Assembly: GCF_000317515.1 (NCBI RefSeq)
Contig: NC_019738.1
Span: forward strand, 6,474,001-6,538,000
Direction of reading: 5' to 3'
DNA: 64,000 bases
Source of the DNA: Allocoleopsis franciscana PCC 7113
Lineage (GTDB): Bacteria > Cyanobacteriota > Cyanobacteriia > Cyanobacteriales > Coleofasciculaceae
Made by a program: the position numbers and the translations under genes. The notes under the pieces were generated by a model. It did no database searches, was not told the origin of the DNA, and worked only from the letters and a program-made list of their open reading frames with translations. How positions within the stretch are numbered: the first letter of the stretch is position 1; each line of letters opens with the position of its first letter. Shown here in pieces: positions 2,390 through 20,951 of the stretch.

Positions 2390-3925
2390 AAAAAACTACA
2401 ACCTATGCTGTGAGAGAGGGAGAGACTCAACTCCTCGGCTGTTACTGGGTACAAATTAAGGAAACTTCTAACAAATCTAACGCTTTTTGTTGGAGTGGAG
2501 TCGGTTGAGTAATTTTCTCAAACATTAGAGAAGTCTCCAGACCACTAGACTGGAATTTATTTTTGACAATCGTTGCTAAATCAGTCATTAAAGTCCGAAA
2601 ACTATGGACAGGAAGCTTTTCAGGTGTCTTTTTAGTCGCTGCCTTAGCGCGGGCTTTCTTTGAACGCTTAGATGGAGCAACAATTGAACTTTTTCCCTCC
2701 GGTTCAACTGTGACTTTTTCATCGTCAAACAGCAGTGGAGCTAAAGCTTTCCTCATGTGCCACTCCACATAATAAGCCAGCATACACAAGAAGACGTGAG
2801 CTTTGACGCGCTGTTCTAAACGGTGATAAATTGGACGTACTTTCAAATCGATAGTTTTATAACTGCGGAAAGCTTGTTCGACAGTAGAAAGGCTTTTATA
2901 GGTTCTCACCGTTTGAGCCGCATCTAAAGTCTCCGGTTTGACTGAAGTCCGAATAATATAGACTCCATCCAAAGCCGAATCATTGGCGATAGCCGCTTCA
3001 TTCAATGAGTAAGAAAAACTTGTCTCAGTGATGGCAATATTAAAGTATTTCCCCACACATGTAGCATTGAGAACTCGCCCCACTCTCAGTCCAATCTGGT
3101 CGGCTCCTTTGAGGGCGCGTTTATCTCGTGAAGTGGCGATAACAATCTTATTGAGTTCCTGCTGTGTCGCCTGTAATAAAGCAATTCTAGTCAAAGACTT
3201 TTCTTGAGCAAGCATCGGGTTGCGACAAGCAATTAGCCGCTCACTGGGGTAATCAGAACAAGAAAATTCTACTAAGTCAGTTTCATCAAATAATGAGAGT
3301 TGAACAGCTTCTTGTTCAAGAAGTTTCCGAAGCTCCTTCGGATAGATGTCTTAGGGCTAACTCATTTTCGATTAATTCTTGTTTGGATACCAGCCAATCC
3401 ATTGCTTCATACAATTCATCTTCATCGGCTTTTTCTAAGCCCAACAGTTCACTTAACGATGAATTGCACGTTTCGCTGTGCAATCCTCTCGCTGTGGCTA
3501 ACTTGGAACGAGGGTCAAGGAGACGCGCCACGATCATCGCCAAAACTAGAGCTCGTTTTCTCGAATTTGAGGGTGAGATTAGATGGTGCAAAGACAGTTT
3601 TTTGATTGTTCCTAAAACCGCAGCTACATGACCATGAGGTAGACTTCTTTCTACAGAGAATGATTCGGAGAGATTTTCAATAGCTGCGCCGCCTTTGAGC
3701 ACTATTCTCAAGTTATCAATGACAGTATCCGGTAATTTCGACAGGTTAGCTAAAGTTCTTTTACGGATTTTACCCCCTTCACGATAGGACTCTCGTAGGA
3801 GGACAGCGGGGGGTGAATTTCTGTTAGGGACTCGTTCAATATACATGGCTACTATTGTCCCAGAAATCTCCCCGCCAAAATCTTAAAAAATTCTTAAAAA
3901 CATGGGTACGGCTTTCTGGGAGTAA
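2390..3925. mobile_element. Decayed IS1634-family insertion sequence (limits approximate)
   Basis: The stretch between the orphan Tat leader and the caspase gene is filled by a broken IS1634-type transposase on the minus strand. The ends are not resolved. A weak inverted match (CTGGGTACAA near 2445, and CTGGGACAAT read on the minus strand at about 3847-3857) flanks the ORF. The heptamer TGGGTAC occurs as a direct repeat at 2446-2452 and 3903-3909. The element lacks a complete transposase and cannot move by itself. Confidence 0.6.
2442..3846 (-). pseudogene. IS1634-family (IS4-like DDE) transposase, internally deleted and frameshifted
   Basis: The 5' part (3846 down to 3316, 176 aa) starts MYIERVPNRNSPPAVLLRES, the hallmark start of IS1634-type transposases. 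It runs in frame to LSEGAS, then shifts and stops at 3316. The 3' part resumes in another frame at about 3334 with RKLLEQEAVQLSLFDETD and runs to EVSLICTQ at 2442. In intact relatives about 110 residues lie between these points, including the first catalytic Asp segment (YDVTSSYYEG-like) and a GDRGM-like motif; here they are missing. The gene is therefore dead through an internal deletion plus a frame change, not just a sequencing slip. The family call comes from remembered motifs. Confidence 0.85.
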
Positions 3926-5083
3926 ATGGCTCTAGTTCCCGTCACTCAAGCTTTTTCTCCCTTTGTAGTTCATCTGTACGGGGGAACTTCCGTTCTAGCT
4001 CAAAGTACGCCTCGCAAACTGGCGTTACTTGTTGGCATTAATAATTACATCGAACAACCTTTGGAAGGATGCCTCAACGATGTAGATTTGCAACGAAACT
4101 TGTTGATTTATCGGTTTGGGTTTAATCCCAAAGATATTTTGGTTTTGCCTGATAAAGATGCGACACGGGAAGGGATGCTAACGGCGTTTGATGAACATTT
4201 AATTAAACAAGCTAAACTGGGAGATGTGGTGGTTTATCACTATTCTGGGCATGGTTCGCAAATTTTTGACTCTGATCCAATTGGGGGTGAGCGAGGAAAA
4301 GCAGGACTAAATGGGACTTTTGTGCCGGTGGATAGTAATTTATCGGCTGGATATCCAGAAGTTGGAGGAACGGTGCAAGACATTATGGGGCATACGTTGT
4401 TTTTGCTGATGTCTGCGCTGAAAACTGAAAATGTCACGGCGGTTTTGGATAGTTGTTTTTCCGGTGGGGCGACAAGAGAAGCGCGGGTACGTTCGCGGGA
4501 TGGGGGTAAGAATGTTTTGGTTTCTGCTAATGAAAAAACGTACCAAGAGCAGTGGTTATCTCGGTTAAATATGTCGCCAGAAGACTTTGTGAAGGGGTAT
4601 CGAACAGGCGTTGCTAAAGGTATGGTTTTAGCGGCAACTGCACCTGATCAATTGGCACGGAAAGTAAATATTAATGGCTTTAAATCAGGCATCTTTAGTT
4701 ATTTACTCACGCATTATCTTTGGCAGGAGGATAGCAATATTGAGCGGGTATTCCAAAAGATTCTCCCAGAAATCCCGAAAGATTTTGATCAATTGCCGCG
4801 TTATGAAGTGAAACCAGGGAGCGATTATCAATGGCAAAGTCCTTATTTTATTAATTCTCCTCAGTCGCCAGCACAGGCGGTGGTGATGGGAGTGAAGGGG
4901 AATACTGCCCAGTTGTGGTTAGGGGGTGTTGATTTAAGGCAGGTGAAAGCGGGGACGGTATTTACGGCAATGAAGGGTACAGGACAGGTGAAAGTGGTTG
5001 CTCGTGATGGGTTGGTGGCACAGGCAATGGTTGAGAACGCCGTGAAGAAAGGAACACCGTTGCGTTTGATGGGTAATGGGTAA
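3926..5083 (+). CDS. Caspase-family (metacaspase/C14) cysteine peptidase, apparently lacking its export leader
   Basis: The peptidase domain starts at about residue 29 (TPRKLALLVGIN) and carries the His-Cys dyad, H109 in YHYSGHGS and C177 in DSCFSGG. Prokaryotic caspase homologues cleave after basic residues and are linked to stress or cell-death signalling. The 120 residues after the catalytic half (about 265-385) contain a small beta-rich domain of a kind common in cyanobacterial members. The start is odd: a TAA lies directly before this ATG, and the first 25 residues look like the tail of a cut signal peptide (hydrophobic, then SVLAQS). The n-region is missing where the insertion-sequence remnant ends. 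The enzyme may now be cytoplasmic or unexpressed. The catalytic domain itself is intact. Confidence 0.88.
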   Translation: MALVPVTQAFSPFVVHLYGGTSVLAQSTPRKLALLVGINNYIEQPLEGCLNDVDLQRNLLIYRFGFNPKDILVLPDKDATREGMLTAFDEHLIKQAKLGDVVVYHYSGHGSQIFDSDPIGGERGKAGLNGTFVPVDSNLSAGYPEVGGTVQDIMGHTLFLLMSALKTENVTAVLDSCFSGGATREARVRSRDGGKNVLVSANEKTYQEQWLSRLNMSPEDFVKGYRTGVAKGMVLAATAPDQLARKVNINGFKSGIFSYLLTHYLWQEDSNIERVFQKILPEIPKDFDQLPRYEVKPGSDYQWQSPYFINSPQSPAQAVVMGVKGNTAQLWLGGVDLRQVKAGTVFTAMKGTGQVKVVARDGLVAQAMVENAVKKGTPLRLMGNG

Positions 5084-6084: not shown

Positions 6085-7941
6085 ATGGCGCAGTGGTTTA
6101 AATTCGTTGGGTTCATTTCACTTTCAGGGGTAACTTGCCTACTTTTATGCTCACAATCCTTCGCCGCTATTCCTGAGCAGATGGCTCCCAGGATAGCCCA
6201 ACAGCCAGTTAACTCTGATGCGGCTGAACAAGTTCTTCAGGAAGCGATCCAACTCTATCGGCAAGGAACAGCAGAATCTCTGCGACAAGCAATTCCTAAA
6301 TTTGAACAAGCTGCCATACTCTATTATCAAGCGAGTGACAAACGCTCAGAAGCCTTATCTCTCGTTGCCCTTGGGCGTGTCTACAGCGACTTGGGAGAAA
6401 AGCAGAAGGCCTTGGAACGCTACAACCAAGCTTTGCCCCTAGTACGAGCGGTGGGGGATAGAGGTGGGCAAGTCGTTACTCTCAATAATATTGGTACTGT
6501 CTACGACGACTTGGGAGAAAATCAGAAGGCATTGCAATTCTACAACCAAGCTCTGTCCCTATCTCAAGCAGAGGAAGATAGACGTGGGCAAGCTGGTATC
6601 CTCAATAATATTGGCGGTGTCTACTCCTCATTGGGAGAAATGCAGAAGGCATTGCAATTCTACAACCAAGCTTTGCCTCTAAGACGGGCGGTGAGGGATA
6701 GACGAGGGGAAGCCGCTACCCTCAATAATATTGGCTTAGTCTACGACTCATTGGGAGAACAACAGAAAGCATTGGAATTCTACAACCAAGCTTTGCCCCT
6801 AGTACGAGCGGTGGGGGATAGAGGTGGGGAAGCCTCTACTCTCAATAATATTGGCGGTGTCTACTCCTCATTGGGAGAAATGCAGAAGGCATTTGAGTTC
6901 TCCAACCAAGCTCTGTCCCTATCACGGGCGGTAGGGGATAGAGGACAGGAAGCCCTTACTCTCCATAACGTCGCCGTCGCGCAACGCAGCCAAGGCAACC
7001 TGAAAGAATCCTTAACCCTGATGGATAGCGCCATCACCATTATTGAAGACCTCCGCACCAAAATTGGCTCCCAAGAACTCCGCGCCTCCTACTTCGCCAC
7101 CGTCCAAGACTACTACAAGTTCTACATCGACCTGTTGATGCAACTGCACCAGCAAAATCCCAATCAAGGATACGATGCCCTCGCCCTCCACGCCAGTGAA
7201 CGCGCCCGTGCTAGAAGCCTCCTGGAACTCCTCACCGAAGCTAATGCCAACATCCGCCAAGGCGTTGACCCCAAACTGCTAGAACAAGAACGCAATCTTC
7301 AACAACAACTCAACGCCCTAGAACGTCGCAGGTATGAACTCTCCAGCAGTCAGTATACCGAACAACAACTCAATGAAATCAAACAACAATCCCAATCCCT
7401 ACTCACTCAACTCGACCAACTCAAAGCCCAAATTCGGGTTACCAGTCCCCGCTACGCTGCCCTGAAATATCCCGAACCCTTAAACTTACAAGAGATTCAA
7501 CAACAGGTACTCGACGACGATACCCTGCTTTTAGAATATTCCCTCGGCGAAGACCGCAGTTACCTCTGGGCAGTCAGCAAAACCAGCATTACCAGTTACG
7601 TACTCCCCAAACGCAGTGAAATCGAAGCCGCCGCCCAAACTTTCCGCGAATCTCTCACCCCCAATAGCGCCGCCAATCTCGAAGCCGGACTGCCACTGAG
7701 TCAGATGCTTCTCGCCCCCGTCGCTAATCAATTGGGTAATAAACGCTTACTAATTGTTGGAGATGGGGCATTGCAATCTGTTCCCTTTGCCGCGCTGCCC
7801 ATACCGACCTCTCCCCCAACCCCTCTTGACCCCCCTCAATCCCCCGAAGCGGGGGGAGGACGGAGAACAAAGACTTGGATTCACGAGAGGGAAGTCCTAC
7901 TCCCCCCTTCCCTAGTAGGGAAGGGGGGCTGGGGGGGTTAG
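6085..7941 (+). CDS. TPR-CHAT protein, N-terminal part (signal peptide, TPR array, first part of CHAT domain), frame-broken
   Basis: The ATG follows a strong Shine-Dalgarno sequence (GGGGAG at 6075-6080). Residues 1-28 form a Sec-type signal peptide ending SQSFAA, so the product is exported or periplasmic. Residues about 45-305 are tetratricopeptide repeats, five of them almost identical (see the tandem-repeat entry). A helical region (about 330-450) leads into the start of a CHAT domain, ending GDGALQSVPFAALPIP. The frame then enters a GC-rich insert and stops at 7939-7941, immediately after a run of seven G. The rest of the CHAT domain, including its His and Cys, lies in the next frame (7875-8768). 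CHAT proteins are caspase-like peptidases, often with TPR or partner proteins as sensors. Either the gene is broken or the frames are joined by slippage; see the finding. Confidence 0.88.
   Translation: MAQWFKFVGFISLSGVTCLLLCSQSFAAIPEQMAPRIAQQPVNSDAAEQVLQEAIQLYRQGTAESLRQAIPKFEQAAILYYQASDKRSEALSLVALGRVYSDLGEKQKALERYNQALPLVRAVGDRGGQVVTLNNIGTVYDDLGENQKALQFYNQALSLSQAEEDRRGQAGILNNIGGVYSSLGEMQKALQFYNQALPLRRAVRDRRGEAATLNNIGLVYDSLGEQQKALEFYNQALPLVRAVGDRGGEASTLNNIGGVYSSLGEMQKAFEFSNQALSLSRAVGDRGQEALTLHNVAVAQRSQGNLKESLTLMDSAITIIEDLRTKIGSQELRASYFATVQDYYKFYIDLLMQLHQQNPNQGYDALALHASERARARSLLELLTEANANIRQGVDPKLLEQERNLQQQLNALERRRYELSSSQYTEQQLNEIKQQSQSLLTQLDQLKAQIRVTSPRYAALKYPEPLNLQEIQQQVLDDDTLLLEYSLGEDRSYLWAVSKTSITSYVLPKRSEIEAAAQTFRESLTPNSAANLEAGLPLSQMLLAPVANQLGNKRLLIVGDGALQSVPFAALPIPTSPPTPLDPPQSPEAGGGRRTKTWIHEREVLLPPSLVGKGGWGG
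6391..6990 (+). repeat. Five near-identical 120-bp tandem repeats encoding TPR units
   Basis: Units start at 6391, 6511, 6631, 6751 and 6871, each beginning TTGGGAGAA and encoding a 40-residue TPR (LGE.QKAL..YNQAL, then TLNNIG). High DNA identity between units, especially 3 and 5, points to recent duplication or gene conversion. The repeat number is likely to vary between strains. Confidence 0.92.
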
Positions 7942-7942
7942 G
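7808..7942. repeat. GC-rich palindromic repeat inserted inside the CHAT coding region
   Basis: About 130 bp of C-rich then G-rich sequence interrupts the CHAT domain between the conserved FAALPIP and GYTPLL segments. It holds a perfect 12-bp stem (7902-7913 with 7917-7928, loop AGT), then CT and a G7 run (7931-7937). Its core resembles the repeats at 26367-26469 and 62848-62913. It codes for low-complexity Pro/Gly-rich residues not expected in the CHAT fold. Its length shifts the frame. Confidence 0.75.
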
Positions 7943-8768
7943 TTACACCCCGCTTTTAGTCCAAAACGAAATCATCACCCTCCCCTCCGCCTCCACCGTT
8001 GCCATTCAACAGCGCCAACTGCAAAACCGTCCCACTGCTGCCAAAACCCTTGCCGTAATTGCTGACCCCATCTTCGCTCTCAACGACCCTCGTTTTTCAA
8101 CTACACCCCAACCCACCCCTGAAACACCCACCAACTCTGCCCTGACTCGCGCCACTCGTAACTTAGGTTTAGGGGACAGTGCCAAACTACTTGACCGATT
8201 GCAATATACTCGTACCGAAGCCGAAAAAATCCTCGCCCTCGTCCCAGAAGCGAAACATCTGCAAGCCTTAGACTTTAATGCCTCTCGAACTACAGCAACT
8301 AACCCGAATTTAGCCCAATATCAAATTATCCACCTTGCCACTCACGGCTTACTCGACCCCATTAATCCTGAACTATCAGGAATCGTGCTGTCCCTATTCG
8401 ACCAAAAAGGCAAATCCCTTGATGGTTTCTTGCGCCTACAGGATATCTTCAACCTCAACTTACCTGCGGAACTCGTGGTTTTGAGTGCCTGCGAAACCGG
8501 ATTAGGAAAAGACGTGAAAGGGGAAGGATTGGTCGGCTTGACAAGAGGCTTTATGTATGCAGGGTCACGGCGAGTGGTGGTGAGTTTGTGGAGTGTTAAT
8601 GATGTCGCCACGTCTGAGGTGATGGCGAAATTCTACCAGAAAATGCTTCAGGACGGGCAAAATCCAGTAACGGCATTAAGGGCTGCACAACTAGAGATGT
8701 GGAACTCCCAGCAATGGCAGTCTCCTTATTATTGGGCAGCGTTTACCGTACAGGGGGATTGGCGGTAG
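7875..8768 (+). CDS. TPR-CHAT protein, C-terminal catalytic part of CHAT domain (frame-shifted continuation)
   Basis: This frame opens with a TTG at 7875 inside the repeat and carries the remainder of the CHAT domain from about residue 23 (YTPLLVQNEIITLPSAST). The expected dyad is present: H157 in HLATHG and C206 in LSACETG, followed by the usual GLTRGFMYAGSRRVVVSLW segment. It ends 12 bp before the convergent kinase gene. A -1 slip on the G7 run at 7931-7937 would join it to the TPR part with no stop in between. Independent initiation at TTG is possible (a GGAG lies at 7862-7865) but would yield a domain without its N-terminal strands or signal peptide. Biologically this is one gene with the entry at 6085. 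Confidence 0.88.
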   Translation: MDSREGSPTPPFPSREGGLGGLGYTPLLVQNEIITLPSASTVAIQQRQLQNRPTAAKTLAVIADPIFALNDPRFSTTPQPTPETPTNSALTRATRNLGLGDSAKLLDRLQYTRTEAEKILALVPEAKHLQALDFNASRTTATNPNLAQYQIIHLATHGLLDPINPELSGIVLSLFDQKGKSLDGFLRLQDIFNLNLPAELVVLSACETGLGKDVKGEGLVGLTRGFMYAGSRRVVVSLWSVNDVATSEVMAKFYQKMLQDGQNPVTALRAAQLEMWNSQQWQSPYYWAAFTVQGDWR

Positions 8769-11511: not shown

Positions 11512-12579
11512 TCAAAGCACATATTCTCCATAAATGAATCCTTTTGCTCGCAGAGTTTCTCCTTGGAGAAAAAGGCTAACTTCAACACGGCCTGTAACTT
11601 CTTCAATAAAACTGTATTGACGGTCTTGATTATCAGGCACTACTAGCTCCATCGTGGTTTCAAAGTTGACGTTGACTAACAATCGATCGCATTCATCGGC
11701 GGCTTCTACCTGCAAGCTAGAAGGGACTTTTAAGGTGCGATCGGCAAACAGGGAAGCCATAATTCCGGGCAGACGCACAGGCATGACTGGAGAGGACGAC
11801 CAATCCCAATGAATAGCTAAAGTAGAGCCGAGGAAAATTTTGTGTATCCGATTATCCACATATACAAAAATATAGGGTAAGTACTTGACAGAATGGTCTT
11901 TATTGGTACGTTGGTCTAAAACCAGAGTAATTTGCCTGCCGTCATCACAGGTGGCAAAAGCGACAAACCATTCCCAAGCAATATCTTCACCCCAACGAAA
12001 ACGACCAAAGTTGTGATCGTGGTAGACAAACCAATCGCGATCGATACTGAAGTTCTGTTCGCCTACAGATAACTCTCCCATTACTTGTAAACCGGGCACC
12101 AAACCCCAACCGATGAAACCACTGCCAAAAGGCGAATCCTCGGTTACTAACAATGGCATGGCTTGTGCCTCTCCTTGGCAACGAATGGATAACTGCGCCC
12201 TTTCGTCTTGGACTTGCAGCGTCGAGTGTTTGCCATCAAGTTCCAGCAAGACGCCGTTTCCCTGGATACGCAAGGGGTTTCGACGCACCATATCGGGTTG
12301 CCATTCCAAGTTGAAAGTAGTGCCTAATGTCGCCATAGGCGTATCCACCGGCTCCTCTGGCAGCAGGTGAGTGCTGGCTAAGTTGACCAGGAAGCTTACT
12401 TGAATCTCGCCGTGTCCTGGTCTGCCCATCAAGTTTATGTTGACCAGTATCCGCACTTTTCCTTGTCTATCCAGGAGAACGAAATGATACCAATCTTTCC
12501 AGTCCATGGGGGAGGCGGGGTCATCCAAGGGGATGCGTAGGGCTTCAATACGGGCTAGCAGTTGTTCGTCAATGGTCAT
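11512..12579 (-). CDS. CrtC/AttH-like (carotenoid 1,2-hydratase, lipocalin-type) protein
   Basis: This 355-aa protein is beta-rich, with two lipocalin-like halves as in the hydroxyneurosporene synthase/AttH superfamily. Recognisable features are the N-terminal DWKDWYHFVLLDRQGKVRI strand pair and the centre, RDWFVYHDHNFGRFRW followed by EWFVAFA, which matches the family's conserved Y/WxDHNWG region. Members hydrate isoprenoid double bonds or act as cyclases on polyene or terpenoid substrates. The start codon overlaps the stop of the upstream gene by 4 bases (ATGA), so translation is coupled to it. Two genes further upstream is a polyprenyl diphosphate synthase. I therefore infer an isoprenoid-modifying role; the actual reaction is unknown. 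No signal peptide is seen. Confidence 0.75.
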   Translation of the reverse strand: MTIDEQLLARIEALRIPLDDPASPMDWKDWYHFVLLDRQGKVRILVNINLMGRPGHGEIQVSFLVNLASTHLLPEEPVDTPMATLGTTFNLEWQPDMVRRNPLRIQGNGVLLELDGKHSTLQVQDERAQLSIRCQGEAQAMPLLVTEDSPFGSGFIGWGLVPGLQVMGELSVGEQNFSIDRDWFVYHDHNFGRFRWGEDIAWEWFVAFATCDDGRQITLVLDQRTNKDHSVKYLPYIFVYVDNRIHKIFLGSTLAIHWDWSSSPVMPVRLPGIMASLFADRTLKVPSSLQVEAADECDRLLVNVNFETTMELVVPDNQDRQYSFIEEVTGRVEVSLFLQGETLRAKGFIYGEYVL

Positions 12580-14141
12580 CGTTGTAGCGAACCTGCCTCA
12601 CAAAAAACATCCTTGACTATTGTCTGCTGGGACGGCGTTGGGAGGATAGAGGCTACACCAATACTGGAGGCGATCGCATCCCAGGTGGTGGCAATTCTGG
12701 GCAATACCAACGCCAGTCCCAGCACAAGGCAACTAAACCAGCGTTCTGCATCCATTCCCAGAGATGCTTTGAGCGCGTCTACCGCCTCAGCCGATACGGA
12801 AAAGTCACGATTAGGCTGGCCTTCATCAAACTCTGTTGCACCTAAACTCCACAACCAGTGTGAGGCAAGGGTTAGCCAACCACCTTGGTTTTTGTCACCG
12901 CCAACAGAATTCTGATAAGCAGAGGCAGCTTCCTGAGTGATAACTAGCCAACGGGGGGCTTCTGCTGCGGCAAAAGCGAGTACCCCATTCTGATAGAAAC
13001 GGGTGTTACTTAACTGAGTCAGTAACTCGCTACCAGCTTGGGTGCGACGGTATTTATCACCTTCTTGGCATAGGAGGAGCAACAATTCTATAACTAGCCA
13101 ACGAGCCGGAAGTGTATCTAAACCGGGTATTACAGCAAGCAAACTTTTAGTTGCCTCGGTAGTGCGATCGCTAAGTGGGATGCGTTGCCACGCATCGCTA
13201 TCTAAGGTTGCTTCTTTTGAGGCGATATCTTGCAATTTTTTGGCAATGAGTGGGGATATCTGCGCCAGTCCCAAGAGGATGCCAGCGAACCAGCGATCGG
13301 CAGAACCTCCTAGTTTGGCAACGAATTTTTCGGCTAAAAAACCTGGAACTGACGTTTCTCTTTTTTTCTCTAGAGGTTCTTGCTCAGCGGGAACCAAGTT
13401 TAACAGCCATTTTTCCCAAATAGCTAGCAAACTCTGACCCCCTAAAATTGTATTCTCACTTTTGATGTTATCGCCTATCCAGTTGGGAATTTGTGCGGAG
13501 GCAAAAGCGATCACTCCATTTTGAAAGAAGCTAGTTGGTCTAATTTGATTGAGTAATTGTGTGCCCGGTTCAGTTTGGGCGTATTCCTCGCCTTTTTTAC
13601 TTAAACTGGCTAAAATTTCAGCGACTAGCCAGCGAGATGGTATTTTATCTAGGTCTATTAAACCTGACATCAAACCAAACATTCCGGCTGTTGATTTGTC
13701 TAGGGCATTCGAGAACAAGTCTCCGTCACGAGAAGAGAAAGGTAAAGTAACTGGCAAGGAAACTTCGACAACCTGATTTTGATTTTTTTCAGTTTCTGGC
13801 AATACAATTTCTAGTTGGATAGGAATCGCTTCTTCTTGAATGGCTGGAAAGCGTAACCAACTTTTGACTTTCTGTCCTATTTGCAGTATGGAAGGAAGTG
13901 AAATTATAATTTTTTGGCTAAATTGGCTTCCCTGAACTAGATAAAGATAAGAGGGAGAAATACTACTAGATATAGAGATGACTTGACCGTTATCTACTAA
14001 CCAATCATCTAATATAGGACGGAATAATAAGTTTTCAGGTATTTGGCTATTAATTAATAGATGTAGAACCAAACTTGAACCTGGATAAACTTTTATATTT
14101 TCATATACAAAGTTTTTGATAATGACTGGTATTTCATCCAT
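12576..14141 (-). CDS. Unknown protein with N-terminal beta domain and two copies of a helical module (521 aa)
   Basis: I do not recognise this family. Residues 1 to about 130 look like a beta-sandwich (alternating short strands). Then a helical module occurs twice: about 165-308 and about 343-494. Matching pieces are SRWLVAEILASLSKKGEEY / ARWLVIELLLLLCQEGDKY, SFFQNGVIAFASAQIPNW / RFYQNGVLAFAAAEAPRW, and ADRWFAGILLGLAQISPLI / AERWFSCLVLGLALVLPRI. The modules are tryptophan-rich and partly hydrophobic, so they may bind lipid or lie at a membrane surface. It sits 35 bp after the polyprenyl synthase and overlaps the CrtC-like gene by 4 bp, so all three should form an operon. A role in handling or cyclising an isoprenoid is inference only. 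Confidence 0.8.
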   Translation of the reverse strand: MDEIPVIIKNFVYENIKVYPGSSLVLHLLINSQIPENLLFRPILDDWLVDNGQVISISSSISPSYLYLVQGSQFSQKIIISLPSILQIGQKVKSWLRFPAIQEEAIPIQLEIVLPETEKNQNQVVEVSLPVTLPFSSRDGDLFSNALDKSTAGMFGLMSGLIDLDKIPSRWLVAEILASLSKKGEEYAQTEPGTQLLNQIRPTSFFQNGVIAFASAQIPNWIGDNIKSENTILGGQSLLAIWEKWLLNLVPAEQEPLEKKRETSVPGFLAEKFVAKLGGSADRWFAGILLGLAQISPLIAKKLQDIASKEATLDSDAWQRIPLSDRTTEATKSLLAVIPGLDTLPARWLVIELLLLLCQEGDKYRRTQAGSELLTQLSNTRFYQNGVLAFAAAEAPRWLVITQEAASAYQNSVGGDKNQGGWLTLASHWLWSLGATEFDEGQPNRDFSVSAEAVDALKASLGMDAERWFSCLVLGLALVLPRIATTWDAIASSIGVASILPTPSQQTIVKDVFCEAGSLQR

Positions 14142-14176
14142 TTAGTTTTTCTCTAACTTTTCTTATTGACACAAGC

Positions 14177-15763
14177 TTACACATTTCTGTAAATCACGTA
14201 GTTAATTATTTCTTTGAGAAATCGACGGTCGTGGACAGGACATCCCCATTTTTCTTCTGAGCGTAGCGGGTTTTCTGACTGAAGAAAATCTAGGTTATCA
14301 AAAATTCTTGCGGCTTTGTTGGTAAGCGATCGCGCAACTTCCCAGCCGTGTTCGATGCTACCGCAAAGTTGCATTTGTTCACTAATAAAAGCAATATCCT
14401 CTGGTGTTTTTTTATCGCGGGGTAAAGCAAGGATTTTCAATATCTTCTCAGATGCTTTGCCACGATGTGACAAAACATGATTCAGCATTAAGGTGCGTTT
14501 GCCTTCGTAAATATCACCGCCAATTTCTTTCCCATAATTTTCGATTTGACCTTGTAAATTCAACAAATCGTCTTGGATCTGAAAAGCAATTCCTAATAGC
14601 ATACCAAATCGAGTTATACCTGCCAAATGGTTAACTAGCTCCTTATTACTTGCTGATGGATGTCCGACGATCAGACCAATTCGGCAGGGAGTAATAAACG
14701 AATACCAGCAGGTTTTTTTGACGCACATTTTAAAATAATCTTGGTCGGTTAGGTGGGAAGCATTGGTAGCCACCCAATCTAATTCCATTGCCTGTCCTTC
14801 GACAGATTGCTGCGCCATAAACTCGATTTCATGTAAAACATTGAGAGCTTTGGAAACTCCAATGCTTGACAGATTTTCTAGCAATAAACCTACTGCCAAG
14901 ACGTTGGTAGCATCACCTACATTAATGGCGCGGGGAATTCCAATCATTTGGTGCAAAGTTCCTTTCCCCCGTCGAGATTCGGAACCGTCTTCGATATCGT
15001 CGTGAATTAGAAAAGCGTTGTGATAAAGTTCAAGAGCTGCTGCTGATGTCAAGGCATCATGTCCCCTACCTCCTACTGCTCTGGCAACACTAATACACAG
15101 AGTTGGTCGCAGCATTTTGCCGAGACGGAAGGGGTAATCAGTTAATAATTCATATAATGGTTTATAGGCACCTTCAATATCACTTCTAGTGGCAACAAAT
15201 TCTTTGATTGTTTCGCCTACTGCTAACCGGGATTGGTGTACTGCTTCATTGATAATGTTTTTGTCATACATTAACTGCTCTTCGGCAGTGTTGGTGACTT
15301 CCTCAACTTTATGGTTTTCTACGAGAGCTTCACTCGATCCATTGGTAGCGATGTTAACGGCTGAGGCGATCGCATAGGGATGTGGATGCGCGTTCGCCAC
15401 TCCCCCTTTAGCTGCTAATGGCACGTTTGTAATGTGTTGGGCAAACGTGGGCAGCGCTGTCGAGGAATTTTCCGTGTATTCCCCTGTGTTTATCTTATTA
15501 CCATTCTCTTCAAAATCCGGTCTATAAGCAGGCAGAGGCAACTGCTGACCGTTTGTAAAGTTGTTTTTAATACTGTTGGCTAGATTGACTTCTACTGCGA
15601 GTACGGGTTTATTTTTCTGTTGTTTCTTTGGTGTTGCCGTGGTAATTTTAATAACTTTTTTGGGTAACTCTTCTTGTATTTGAATTCCTATTTTCTGTTT
15701 ATGGTCGTACATTAACCAAGCAGAAAAGCAGAAGTACAGTATGAACAGAAAAATTGCAAGCAT
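14177..15763 (-). CDS. Polyprenyl (geranylgeranyl-type) diphosphate synthase with N-terminal membrane anchor
   Basis: The C-terminal 350 residues are a trans-isoprenyl diphosphate synthase. The first Asp-rich motif is HDDIED (D255, D256, D259), followed by a conserved SRRGKGTLHQ region. The second motif is QIQDDLLNL (D398, D399, with N402 instead of a third Asp), and later come GGDIYEGKRTLM and a C-terminal helix bundle. The enzyme condenses isopentenyl diphosphate with allylic diphosphates. Unusually, about 180 residues precede it: a single membrane segment (residues 1-18), then a low-complexity, probably disordered tether. Ordinary bacterial synthases are about 300-350 aa and soluble. It heads a three-gene operon with the duplicated-module protein and the CrtC-like protein. 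Chain length of the product cannot be read from sequence with confidence. Confidence 0.9.
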   Translation of the reverse strand: MLAIFLFILYFCFSAWLMYDHKQKIGIQIQEELPKKVIKITTATPKKQQKNKPVLAVEVNLANSIKNNFTNGQQLPLPAYRPDFEENGNKINTGEYTENSSTALPTFAQHITNVPLAAKGGVANAHPHPYAIASAVNIATNGSSEALVENHKVEEVTNTAEEQLMYDKNIINEAVHQSRLAVGETIKEFVATRSDIEGAYKPLYELLTDYPFRLGKMLRPTLCISVARAVGGRGHDALTSAAALELYHNAFLIHDDIEDGSESRRGKGTLHQMIGIPRAINVGDATNVLAVGLLLENLSSIGVSKALNVLHEIEFMAQQSVEGQAMELDWVATNASHLTDQDYFKMCVKKTCWYSFITPCRIGLIVGHPSASNKELVNHLAGITRFGMLLGIAFQIQDDLLNLQGQIENYGKEIGGDIYEGKRTLMLNHVLSHRGKASEKILKILALPRDKKTPEDIAFISEQMQLCGSIEHGWEVARSLTNKAARIFDNLDFLQSENPLRSEEKWGCPVHDRRFLKEIINYVIYRNV

Positions 15764-15938: not shown

Positions 15939-16925
15939 TTAGGAAGCAACAGGTCTGATATAAGCACCCAGGCGAACTAACACATCCATATTACTAACAG
16001 GATTAAGGGCATGGGCACCGAAAAGCCCAATTATTTCGTGATTTGGAAATGCTTCAAGAGAAAAAGTTGCCGTTTCCTTTTGGCTACTAGAGCCACCAAA
16101 TACCTGTGATTTAACTCCCTTATAGGTTTGAAACTGTAAGGAGATAATGTCCTGCTCTGGATAGTCGGGGCTTTCTTTACCCCAGGTTAGTACGATTCCT
16201 GTTATATAATCTCCCGTTTCTATGCTGAATTCATCAGCTTGACCACCGGAAGCACCAGCTGCTATTGACTCGTATGTTTCAGGCGGATTTTTTGCTGTAT
16301 CTTCATACTGCACTTGAATATTGTCGATAGCCCAACCCGACTTAATACGCACGGTTTTAATTCTCGACTGAGGCGTTTTGGGTTGGATGGCAAATTCTTC
16401 TGCATCAATAAAGGACCCTCTAGGTCCTAGTGTCGGAAATGACGCTGATGCTGGCGATGATTCTTCCGGAACGGGAACAAGTTCCCATTGCTGGTTTGCT
16501 GTACCATTATTACCGTTGACTGGGTACGTAACAACGGGGGTCAACGGCTCTGTACTGCTCCCTAACACATCTAGCACTAAGCCATTTAGCTTTGACTTTA
16601 TCAACCCATCTTCAGTAATTGTCCATTGCTGATTTGGCGTTCCGTTACTACCGTTTACCGGATAAGTAATAACTGGGGTAAAAGGCTCTGTTCTGCTTCC
16701 TGGAATATCCACCACGAAGCCATTTAGTCTACTTTCTATGAACCCATTTTCAGTAATCTTCCATTGCTGATTCGGCTCACCATTCGTTCCCTTGACTGGG
16801 TAAACAACCAGATGAGTTTTAGCTTCCGCGTTGTTTCCTGCCACATCCAGAACTAAGCCATTGAGCTTGCTTTTTATCAAAAAGTAGCCATTATTACAGC
16901 CGTTTTTAACGGTATTATCTGCCAT
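15939..16925 (-). CDS. Lectin fusion: ricin-type beta-trefoil plus jacalin-like domain
   Basis: Start chosen at ATG 16925 because AAAGGAG lies just upstream; the longer frame would put this Shine-Dalgarno sequence inside the coding region. The 328-aa product has an N-terminal ricin-type trefoil with three subdomains, each ending in a QxW motif (NQQWKI, NQQWTI, NQQWEL) and each containing a SKLNGLVLDV-like strand. After a short Pro/Ser linker comes a jacalin-like domain with WAIDNIQVQYED, GDYITGIVLTWG, a repeated strand pattern and the end VRLGAYIRP. Both domain types bind carbohydrates. No signal peptide is seen, so export, if any, is non-classical. The trefoil subdomains are similar at DNA level, suggesting recent triplication. 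It lies 175 bp upstream of the polyprenyl synthase, on the same strand. Confidence 0.9.
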   Translation of the reverse strand: MADNTVKNGCNNGYFLIKSKLNGLVLDVAGNNAEAKTHLVVYPVKGTNGEPNQQWKITENGFIESRLNGFVVDIPGSRTEPFTPVITYPVNGSNGTPNQQWTITEDGLIKSKLNGLVLDVLGSSTEPLTPVVTYPVNGNNGTANQQWELVPVPEESSPASASFPTLGPRGSFIDAEEFAIQPKTPQSRIKTVRIKSGWAIDNIQVQYEDTAKNPPETYESIAAGASGGQADEFSIETGDYITGIVLTWGKESPDYPEQDIISLQFQTYKGVKSQVFGGSSSQKETATFSLEAFPNHEIIGLFGAHALNPVSNMDVLVRLGAYIRPVAS

Positions 16926-17576
16926 CTTTTTTTCTCCTTTCATCATTAAGTTTTTTAACTTTTTCACAACAAATCGAAGCATATTATTCTTTGTAAGTCA
17001 AGAATAATTTTGTATTTTTTTACATTTTTGTTGATGATAATTTTGCTATGAGGCATATATAGCAGGAGTCAGGACTCAGGACTCAGGAGTAATGCCCTTA
17101 CTGTGACTGGGTTTGAGATTGACATAATGTCTTAACCGCCAAAGCTTTTCCCTTTTGTGCCACTGCTTTGGGAGCATCACTTACCTCCAATTATTTAGCC
17201 GTATCGGAAATTACTTTTTAAACGATCGGCTTATTTGGTGTAGCGGTAGATAGCCCAAGAATGCTGGAATTGCGGGGCTGGGATTTTGCTTTTTGTAGAT
17301 GTAAGCCAGCGGTTGCGAGAAAGGATATTTGGGATTAGCAAGTGTGAAAGCTTACTGACAAAGGTGCAAGATATGAGTTTAGGAACTTTGACAATTACCG
17401 CATTAGATACTTGTTTCATTGGCATTTTAATTGTTGAATTAACATAATAAGTGCTGAAGAACCGTTAAGAATTTATAGTGAGTTAACTAAAGTCAGTAAT
17501 ATTGTTATTTAATTAGTAAAAAACAGAAAAATATAATATAAAATATTTTATTTAATTTCCGAAAACGGCTTTGATA
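16926..17576. other. Spacer of about 650 bp without a gene, with STRR
   Basis: Divergent spacer between the lectin and the glycosyltransferase. It contains a heptameric repeat (17064-17091) and very AT-rich stretches next to both starts (17000-17045 and 17440-17560) where promoters are expected. The 17160-17440 part has short ORFs, for example MSLGTLTITALDTCF followed by a stop, that may be debris of a decayed gene, but nothing is identifiable. Confidence 0.5.
17064..17091. repeat. Heptameric STRR, AGGACTC type
   Basis: Four heptamers: AGGAGTC, AGGACTC, AGGACTC, AGGAGTA. The same family lies inside the coding region of the histidine kinase at 41877-41904. Confidence 0.9.
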
Positions 17577-18899
17577 ATGAGCAAATATATTGCGATCGCT
17601 ACTTTTGGCTCTTTTGGGGATGTATATCCTTACATAGCGATCGCTCTTGAGTTGCACAGAAGGGGACATCATGCCGTCATTGCTGCTAGCGAGATATATC
17701 GCCAGATCATCGAATCAGTTGGAATTGAGTTTCGTGCCATCAGACCGTTAGGCTCAATCAACATGCAAGAAGAGGGGGAGTTTATCGGGTTGCTCTCCTC
17801 CTGTGGGCAGCCTCTGGAGTACGGTATCAGCTATCTGATCGCGCCTCACTTGCGGGCAACCTACAATGACTTGGTGGACGTGGTAGGGGATGCTGATTTA
17901 GTGCTGACGCACCACCTGGCTTTTGCGGCTTGTGTGGCAGCTGAAAAAACTGGGACTCCCAGAGTATCCGGTGTCCTCTCACCTGGGTCGTTTATGTCTG
18001 CGTATGATTCTCCCAGCCTTGCGCCCCTACCGACGGAAGCTAGAAATCGCGCCATGACGCTGGTTGCTAACGATGCTATACATCGAGCTTTCCGGTGGCA
18101 GGCACGCTTTTGGAGCGCCCCAGTGCGACAACTGCGGGCTGAACTTGGTTTACCACCTTCAGGCGATCCTTTTTTTGAAGGTCAGTATTCATCCAAACTG
18201 GTGCTAGGTTTGTTCTCCCAGCTTTTGGCAACTCCTCAACCCGACTGGCCACCCCAAACTCGCATTACTGGGTTTCCTTTATACAACCACCAGGAGCGTC
18301 AAAGTTTGTCTCCTGAACTGGAGACGTTTTTGCAAGCGGGAGCGCCGCCGCTCGTGTTCACTTTAGGCTCTTTAGTGGTGTGGACGCCAGGGAACTTTTA
18401 TTTAGACGGGGCCATTGCCGCCCAGCGCTTAGGCTACAGAGCCGTCTTGCTGATGGGAAAGGCAGCAGATGAGATTGCCCCCCACCAGCTACCAGAAGGA
18501 GCGATCGCAGTTAATTACGCCGCCCACTCAGCCATTTTTCCCCGTGCAGCTGCGATCGTCCATCATGGTGGTATAGGAACAACGGCGCAGGCGTTGCGTT
18601 CCGGTCGCCCCATGCTAGTGGTTCCCTGCGCCTACGATCAGCCAGATAACGCCGCTCGTTTGGTGAGGTTGGGAGTAGCGCGGATGATCGCACGTCAGCA
18701 TTGTACTGCTGACGTGATGAGTGCCGAACTGAAACAGCTGCTGTCTGAGCCTAGTTATGCAGTTAAAGCAGCAGAAGTCGGTCGTTTGGTACAGGCGGAA
18801 AATGGTGCTGCCTCCGCAAGCGATGCGATCGAAGCGTATTTTGAAGTAAGCCACCAGGGGTTAAAACCCGCCGTTTATAGCTCAAGTCCTCTTTCATAA
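17577..18899 (+). CDS. GT1-family glycosyltransferase (MGT/UGT type, sterol or lipid glucosyltransferase-like)
   Basis: Start taken at ATG 17577 (MSKYIAIATFGSFGDVYPYI). The N-terminal GSFGDVYP loop and the C-terminal nucleotide-sugar site, HHGGIGTTAQALRSGRP followed by PCAYDQPDNA, are diagnostic of GT-B, CAZy GT1 enzymes of the YjiC/MGT/sterol glucosyltransferase group. These transfer a sugar from a UDP- or dTDP-sugar to a hydrophobic acceptor. The two Rossmann-like halves are complete (440 aa, normal length). It has no signal peptide and should be cytoplasmic or membrane-peripheral. It stands alone on the plus strand within an island of isoprenoid and lectin genes. An isoprenoid acceptor is a reasonable guess but not shown. 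Confidence 0.92.
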   Translation: MSKYIAIATFGSFGDVYPYIAIALELHRRGHHAVIAASEIYRQIIESVGIEFRAIRPLGSINMQEEGEFIGLLSSCGQPLEYGISYLIAPHLRATYNDLVDVVGDADLVLTHHLAFAACVAAEKTGTPRVSGVLSPGSFMSAYDSPSLAPLPTEARNRAMTLVANDAIHRAFRWQARFWSAPVRQLRAELGLPPSGDPFFEGQYSSKLVLGLFSQLLATPQPDWPPQTRITGFPLYNHQERQSLSPELETFLQAGAPPLVFTLGSLVVWTPGNFYLDGAIAAQRLGYRAVLLMGKAADEIAPHQLPEGAIAVNYAAHSAIFPRAAAIVHHGGIGTTAQALRSGRPMLVVPCAYDQPDNAARLVRLGVARMIARQHCTADVMSAELKQLLSEPSYAVKAAEVGRLVQAENGAASASDAIEAYFEVSHQGLKPAVYSSSPLS

Positions 18900-20133: not shown

Positions 20134-20763
20134 CTACTCTGTGGCGTCTATTTCGGGTGAGTAAACATCAATGGCAAGCACATCTTCCGGCACCTGGCGG
20201 ATCAACTCGCCGTAGGAAGGTTTTTGATGTTCCAAAGAAAGGTACGGTGGTGAAGAAGAACGACGCAACCACAATTGGTCGAATTCTGTCCACAAATGTC
20301 GCAACTGCGGGTTAATGGCACTGTCGGCTAAGATTTCCATTACTACTTGGTGTATGGCCAGCAAGTCTTCTAAAGTTCCGCTTAGGTAAATGTTGTCAGC
20401 CACCACGGCTGCATCTAAAGTCAACCTGCCAGCAATCACGTCTCGGAGAGTTTCGGCTTTGCTGCGAAAATTTACTGACTCCAGCGCCACCGGATATTCG
20501 CTCTCGATTTGCAGTTGTTCTCCTCCCGACGCCCGCAGTCGCAACCTAATTCCATCAAGGTCGATCGCAGCCGTTTTTCCCGAAACCGCTTGCACCAAGA
20601 CTTTCCAGGTGGAACCTCCTTGGCTTCGTAGGATTTCCACCAGGCGGTGCAGCCATTGATCTAGCTGGGCTTGGCGTTCAAAAAATTGATTTTCCATCAA
20701 CAAAGCCCTAGCAAAACTTTCAAACTGTGCAAGATTTGAGCCTCCAAGGGACGCTTCGCGCAT
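20134..20763 (-). CDS. SCP2-like sterol/lipid-binding domain protein
   Basis: The core (about 55-150) has the pattern of SCP2 lipid-carrier domains: a beta-sheet section (IDLDGIRLRLRAS, QLQIESEYPVAL) followed by helices ending GRLTLDAAVVADNIYLSG and DLLAIHQVVMEILADS. The segment INPQLRHLWTEFDQLW after it is also seen in bacterial proteins annotated this way. The start is uncertain: TTG 20787, ATG 20763 and ATG 20697 (MENQFFERQ) are all in frame. The sequence just after 20763 contains a GCGCGAAGCGTCCC-type dispersed repeat, so 20697 may be the ancestral start. SCP2 domains bind hydrophobic molecules, which fits the neighbouring isoprenoid genes. Family call is moderately sure. Confidence 0.7.
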   Translation of the reverse strand: MREASLGGSNLAQFESFARALLMENQFFERQAQLDQWLHRLVEILRSQGGSTWKVLVQAVSGKTAAIDLDGIRLRLRASGGEQLQIESEYPVALESVNFRSKAETLRDVIAGRLTLDAAVVADNIYLSGTLEDLLAIHQVVMEILADSAINPQLRHLWTEFDQLWLRRSSSPPYLSLEHQKPSYGELIRQVPEDVLAIDVYSPEIDATE

Positions 20764-20951
20764 CCCCAACAGATGGAAGAAACACAATTAGCTGAAATCA
20801 TTCAACTATAAGGGTTTGAGAATGTGTTTCTTAAGAGAATAGTGCAGCACCGCTGGCAAATGCAAGACTACGTAAAAACCAACCAGTGACTTACCACCGA
20901 TTACATCATTTTTTAAATACTCACCTATTTATCAGTTGAATAAACAACAGA

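Follow-up and report, generated by a model that had tools for sequence, protein, structure and literature searches.

A conserved cyanobacterial gene cluster linking an anchored prenyl synthase to a CrtC/AttH-fold protein, and its possible role in isoprenoid-glycolipid synthesis

What might be made by a prenyl diphosphate synthase, a protein resembling no known family and a CrtC/AttH-like protein when all three are encoded in one tight run of genes in Allocoleopsis franciscana PCC 7113? The initial annotation of these genes, here called PPS, MID and CRT, had read them as a compact three-gene isoprenoid pathway in which MID or the CrtC-like protein might stand in for a missing terpene cyclase. 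Its three minus-strand reading frames, the 35-bp gap and the 4-bp overlap were all exact on re-check (Table 1; the window is the whole stretch of DNA analyzed, 64,000 nt, NC_019738.1 positions 6,474,001-6,538,000, and all coordinates are positions within it). We favor, at a probability of about one half, a dedicated membrane-tethered pathway leading to a glycosylated isoprenoid that has been hydrated or cyclized, with MID acting as scaffold. An isoprenoid pathway stays plausible; a cyclase role for MID is not supported, and the pathway is not a compact one. The three-gene boundary is incomplete: the cluster reaches about 20.8 kb through its conserved partners, a glycosyltransferase (GT), a lectin, a 187-aa protein (INLD) and a lipid carrier-like SCP2 relative. 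No description of this cluster was found in the open-access literature.

Table 1. Features of the cluster by position in the 64,000-nt window.
Feature	Position	Strand	Basis or remark
PPS, 528-aa membrane-anchored trans-polyprenyl diphosphate synthase	14177-15763	-	PF00348, motifs, N-terminal helix
PPS-MID gap, 35 bp	14142-14176		
MID, 521-aa protein, Ig-like beta sandwich and two homologous helical modules	12576-14141	-	No family match
ATGA stop/start overlap of MID and CRT	12576-12579	-	Also present at several other loci
CRT, 355-aa protein, predicted CrtC/AttH-superfamily fold	11512-12579	-	AlphaFold2 model, Foldseek, VIA-align
Lectin, ricin-B beta-trefoil and jacalin domain	15939-16982	-	No obvious signal peptide
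GT, GT1-type glycosyltransferase, divergent from PPS	17571-18899	+	Pfam and structure relatives
INLD, 187-aa protein, C-terminal hydrophobic helix	19101-19664	-	Fused to lectin domain and GT in genome G342
SCP2-like protein, probable lipid/sterol carrier	20134-20787	-	Linked in nine genomes; annotated start maybe too far upstream

Ten MID loci, all of them cyanobacterial, came out of a pattern scan across 84,980 species genomes: Argonema, Cylindrospermum, Coleofasciculus (two), UBA11370, Microseira, Okeania (three) and Oscillatoria princeps. Because such a scan may overlook divergent sequences, the family could be more common than these numbers suggest. In an even sample of the class, MID, CRT and close PPS orthologs occurred in the identical 2 of 388 genomes, and MID was present in 4 of 37 relatives; its distribution is therefore patchy. 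Within this patchy distribution the gene order is constant. In all 12 genomes with MID, the gene directly after it on the same strand is CRT, and PPS precedes MID at each of the 10 loci whose contig reaches PPS, with a lectin-type gene intervening in two. Conserved linkage elsewhere, on which the earlier proposal had been made to depend, was found by a neighborhood check in four cyanobacterial orders (Oscillatoriales, Nostocales, Coleofasciculales and Aerosakkonematales), and the chance that the three genes are linked by accident is negligible.

The assignment of the first gene as an anchored polyprenyl synthase stands. PPS matches PF00348 with an E value of 3.5e-54 (184 bits against a Pfam cut-off of 27) and keeps both Asp-rich motifs intact (DDIED and QDDLL), as expected of trans-polyprenyl diphosphate synthases of the IdsA/GGPP synthase type; every member checked has DDIED or DDIQD together with QDDLLN. 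Unlike those enzymes, it adds a hydrophobic N-terminal membrane helix (residues 1-19, mean Kyte-Doolittle value 2.16) and a long disordered linker ahead of a catalytic domain at about 190-528. A hydrophobic N-terminal helix followed by a low-complexity linker is shared by 10 of 11 orthologs, in which linker length varies so much that the catalytic domain begins anywhere between residues 90 and 500; the G342 protein, as called, has no predicted anchor. The closest solved structure is the GGPP synthase of T. thermophilus (1wmw, E 1.2e-48). PPS scores under every NCBIfam equivalog cut-off, and its close orthologs form a group of their own in the 388-genome sample, the score falling from 536 to 250 bits at the next relative. 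Since the genome also encodes two further polyprenyl synthases, judged by eye to be CrtE-like and solanesyl-type, PPS appears to be a dedicated third one. An Ala at position -5 and a Phe at -4 of the first Asp-rich motif would, if PPS behaves like mutants of avian FPPS, agree with a product of about C20.

The second-best NCBIfam model for PPS is NF041169, the polyprenyl-transferase cargo of Family 2 encapsulins (161.8 bits, cut-off 450). Long disordered terminal extensions are common to PPS and to the cargo proteins described in PMC8346489, although PPS has a membrane anchor instead of a shell. No Family 2B shell protein in the A. franciscana genome exceeds the 400-bit cut-off, partial matches being confined to model positions 60-206, the cNMP-binding part, and a role as Family 2B cargo is ruled out by this lack of a shell gene. 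The nearest relatives of PPS outside the cluster (44% identity) lie in operons with Linocin_M18 encapsulin-like, amine oxidase and DUF3237 proteins. Three genomes of one cyanobacterial genus (L049:253-6197, L050:5921-11712 and L051:5697-11499) combine a 350-aa polyprenyl synthase with Linocin_M18 (PF04454), a 662-aa amine oxidase and DUF3237. These operons are possibly an encapsulin system with a prenyl synthase as cargo, a combination not found in the passages of PMC8346489 consulted.

MID consists of an Ig-like beta sandwich (about residues 14-133) followed by two helical modules (about 148-312 and 322-495). The modules had been noticed as a duplication from the sequence alone, and profile comparison makes the duplication convincing: hhalign aligns module 1 with module 2 over 161 columns at 35% identity and E 1.6e-58, against E values of 0.025-0.65 for 20 column-shuffled controls. 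Neither Pfam nor NCBIfam contains a family that matches MID, and no relative occurs among PDB sequences, which agrees with the initial view that the protein belongs to no known family; weak Pfam matches such as HTH_45 were judged to be due to chance. A structure model of modest confidence (pLDDT 68) returned no Foldseek match below E 0.001. VIA matches to the model reached Z 9.8, were confined to the Ig-like domain and left the helical modules uncovered; they are too weak to give that domain a nameable relative. By these comparisons MID is a previously undescribed protein family. It had also been put forward as a candidate for the cyclase role, which is not supported, given its Ig-like and helical architecture and the absence of the DxDD, DDxxD/E and NSE motifs from all 12 MID sequences, and we reject it as a canonical terpene cyclase of either class I or class II. 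Conservation in MID is highest at Trp, Gly, Pro, Leu and Arg residues and extends to few groups of catalytic type, so that a scaffold or adaptor joining PPS and CRT is favored for MID, which may alternatively be a novel enzyme.

CRT presents the opposite case, in which the fold is recognizable and the sequence is not. None of 11 CRT members matches Pfam CrtC (PF07143) or Lipocalin_9 (PF17186) at E values up to 1. An AlphaFold2 model (pLDDT 79, pTM 0.81) nevertheless gave Foldseek E values down to 8.1e-11, and all structures below 1e-7 belong to the CrtC/AttH superfamily, including AttH (2ich), CghA, Fsa2, Phm7, kievitone hydratase and 25-phosphosteroid lyase. VIA-align superposed 278-300 residues on these structures with Z 23-25 and rmsd 3.0-3.8, whereas the next fold reached Z 6.0. 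The model thus confirms, at the level of the fold, a two-domain lipocalin-like beta-barrel of the CrtC/AttH superfamily extending over nearly the whole protein, and the CrtC/AttH-like label of the initial annotation is borne out even though no sequence model recognizes CRT. Identity to superfamily members is about 10%, and the key residues of CrtC have no clear counterparts in CRT. CRT has an invariant or nearly invariant motif, YHDRNFG...GWEWF, and the pattern [YH]D.NFG...GWEWF...DG is collinear between CRT and CrtC-type profiles in hhalign, without significance; the probability of the CRT profile against CrtC-family sequences was 0.3-3%, so that the sequences give no proof that CRT is CrtC.

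The fold places CRT among functionally diverse proteins whose reactions at isoprenoid or activated double bonds are hydrations, eliminations or rearrangements. Some of the C20 compound geranylgeraniol, and nothing shorter, is turned over by CrtC itself (PMC6013536). The natural proposal from these two points is that CRT would hydrate or cyclize a prenyl chain by acid-base chemistry, and CRT is the likely performer of double-bond chemistry here, rather than MID; only this half of the earlier suggestion that one or the other fills a cyclase-like role is retained. In the CrtC of R. gelatinosus the catalytic residues are H239, W241, Y266 and D268, and the proposed mechanism includes an acidic Asp (PMC4717167). 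The catalytic W appears to be F in CRT, the alignment being too weak to place H, W, Y and D with confidence; the invariant CRT residues D188, D222 and H187 are candidates. Proteins of the Lipocalin_9 type, present in 40 of 388 cyanobacterial genomes, were considered as relatives of CRT and dismissed: no prenyl synthase was seen near their genes in 20 short loci, and the A. franciscana genome has no PF17186 match.

The genes beyond the original three would give the pathway its glycolipid character. GT exceeds the cut-offs of PF00201 and PF06722 (UDPGT/EryCIII-like), and its closest solved relative is yeast sterol 3-beta-glucosyltransferase (5xvm/5gl5, E 1.6e-35, residues 20-443), which makes it a sterol-type GT1 enzyme that would use a lipid acceptor and a UDP-sugar donor. 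All 10 loci of sufficient length have GT linked, and the cluster GTs form one clade (support 100/100) separate from other cyanobacterial GTs. The SCP2-like gene occurs at eight loci and in a ninth genome, where it adjoins PPS divergently, with PPS on a different contig; one 21-kb Coleofasciculus locus is without it. Seven of nine SCP2-like members match Pfam SCP2 (best E 2.1e-4), the window protein scoring 18.2 bits against a gathering score of 21.3. Both Okeania clusters further encode an FkbM methyltransferase/GT11 protein. Together, the GT, SCP2-like, lectin and FkbM neighbors indicate a glycosylated lipid. A role in anti-phage defense was rejected, seven cluster proteins having no PADLOC match.

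Among the additional genes, those of lectin type recur most consistently. They are found in most clusters and vary in kind (ricin-B with or without jacalin, thrombospondin-C, laminin-G, ILEI, DUF642). No jacalin domain occurs in the genome except that of the window lectin, and ricin-B has one other weak match in the genome; because the window lectin has no clear signal peptide, its binding of an exported glycan is only conjecture. In G342, a 1509-aa open frame (L041:14335-18864) joins an INLD-like region, an H-type lectin domain and GT. These genes, along with the PPS membrane anchor, would also suit a different arrangement, in which PPS makes a longer chain that serves as polyprenyl carrier or anchor for a lectin-bound surface glycan and CRT is a lipocalin-like lipid binder and not an enzyme. 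We regard this as improbable. Nothing in the cluster was recognized as a flippase, ligase, polysaccharide polymerase or prenyl-phosphate sugar transferase, GT is more like sterol glucosyltransferases than polyprenyl-phosphate transferases, and the polar residues of CRT are so strongly conserved that they suggest catalysis.

A second combination of the same enzyme classes occurs in another cyanobacterium, G120. There, one 751-aa protein (L040:1518-3773) comprises CrtC (PF07143), Lipocalin_9 (PF17186) and polyprenyl synthase (PF00348) domains, and its gene lies beside genes for a Rieske/KshA oxygenase, a P450, a GT and an FkbM methyltransferase. Prenyl synthase, CrtC fold and GT1 are therefore shared with the A. 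franciscana cluster, and the two GTs are 50% identical. The synthase domain, however, is just 31% identical to PPS and branches far from the cluster PPS group, the CrtC part is of the Pfam type, the GT falls in another clade, MID was not seen, and Rieske and P450 genes are present. The distant synthase domain and separate GT clade argue that the three classes were assembled separately, in G120 in a clearly biosynthetic setting, so that by sequence comparison the G120 cluster is an independent pairing. Taken by itself, it is also a terpenoid cluster not yet explored.

In the favored isoprenoid-glycolipid pathway, PPS, held at the membrane by its N-terminal helix, would make an all-trans prenyl diphosphate, probably C20, while MID as a non-enzymatic adaptor would hold PPS and CRT together. 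CRT would add a proton to an isolated double bond of the isoprenoid, most likely in the terminal isopropylidene group, and the resulting cation would be captured by water to yield a tertiary alcohol, as in CrtC, or alternatively be captured intramolecularly, giving cyclization. The hydroxylated isoprenoid could then be glycosylated by the divergently encoded GT and carried by the SCP2-like protein, and the varied lectin-type proteins may bind the glycan or the cell surface.

Hydration followed by glycosylation has a precedent in cyanobacteria in myxoxanthophyll, a glycosylated carotenoid whose pathway begins with hydration by CruF (PMC6013536). This precedent, and the fact that CrtC is itself a carotenoid hydratase (PMC4717167), invite the reading that CRT hydrates a carotenoid end group for GT to glycosylate and that PPS merely raises GGPP supply. 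We consider it improbable, if a little less so than the glycan-carrier arrangement: CruF belongs to a family separate from CrtC and already serves the hydration step in cyanobacteria, the genome already has a CrtE-like synthase, CRT lies outside Pfam CrtC, and no phytoene synthase, desaturase or ketolase was noticed in the annotated parts of the clusters.

More serious, if still doubtful, is the idea that CRT is itself a non-canonical terpene cyclase or pericyclase, protonating the PPS product or a derivative and guiding it to cyclize intramolecularly instead of taking up water, so as to give a cyclic diterpene alcohol that GT then glycosylates. As the initial annotation had noted for the three genes, no canonical terpene cyclase is present among the conserved cluster members. 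The G120 fusion cluster likewise shows no separate cyclase, yet it has P450 and Rieske tailoring genes, and the chemistry of CrtC has been likened to that of squalene-hopene cyclase (PMC4717167). In structure CRT is as close to the pericyclases CghA, Fsa2 and Phm7 (VIA Z 24-25) as to the hydratases (Z 23-24), a tie that equally means that similarity of fold does not discriminate between the two. The solved CrtC-fold pericyclases act on polyketide-derived substrates and not on prenyl diphosphates, and we know of no CrtC-fold enzyme that cyclizes a prenyl chain. The fuller version of this idea, a new class of CrtC-fold prenyl cyclase working with anchored PPS and a MID scaffold to make lectin-bound glycosylated cyclic terpenoids, is somewhat less probable again. 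If CRT does cyclize, it would represent a route of terpene cyclization independent of class I and class II cyclases alike.

Should the favored isoprenoid-glycolipid pathway be correct, cyanobacteria would possess an undescribed isoprenoid glycoside pathway, with a new protein family and a role for an enzyme fold that sequence models miss. This rare yet conserved gene set would then indicate a class of natural product not seen before, and its association with lectins hints at a lipid with a surface or allelopathic function. The occurrence of prenyl synthase, CrtC fold and GT1 in two unrelated clusters offers a new signature for genome mining.

Some further features were noted elsewhere in the window, with domains named by eye. 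Two open reading frames at 2442-3846 resemble fragments of a broken transposase, and a caspase-like gene lies at 3926-5083. The gene for a TPR protein (6085-7941) and that for a CHAT-like protein (7875-8768) overlap, each in its own frame, where there is a PSREGGLGG-type repeat, and look as if a repeat insertion had shifted the frame of a single TPR-CHAT gene.
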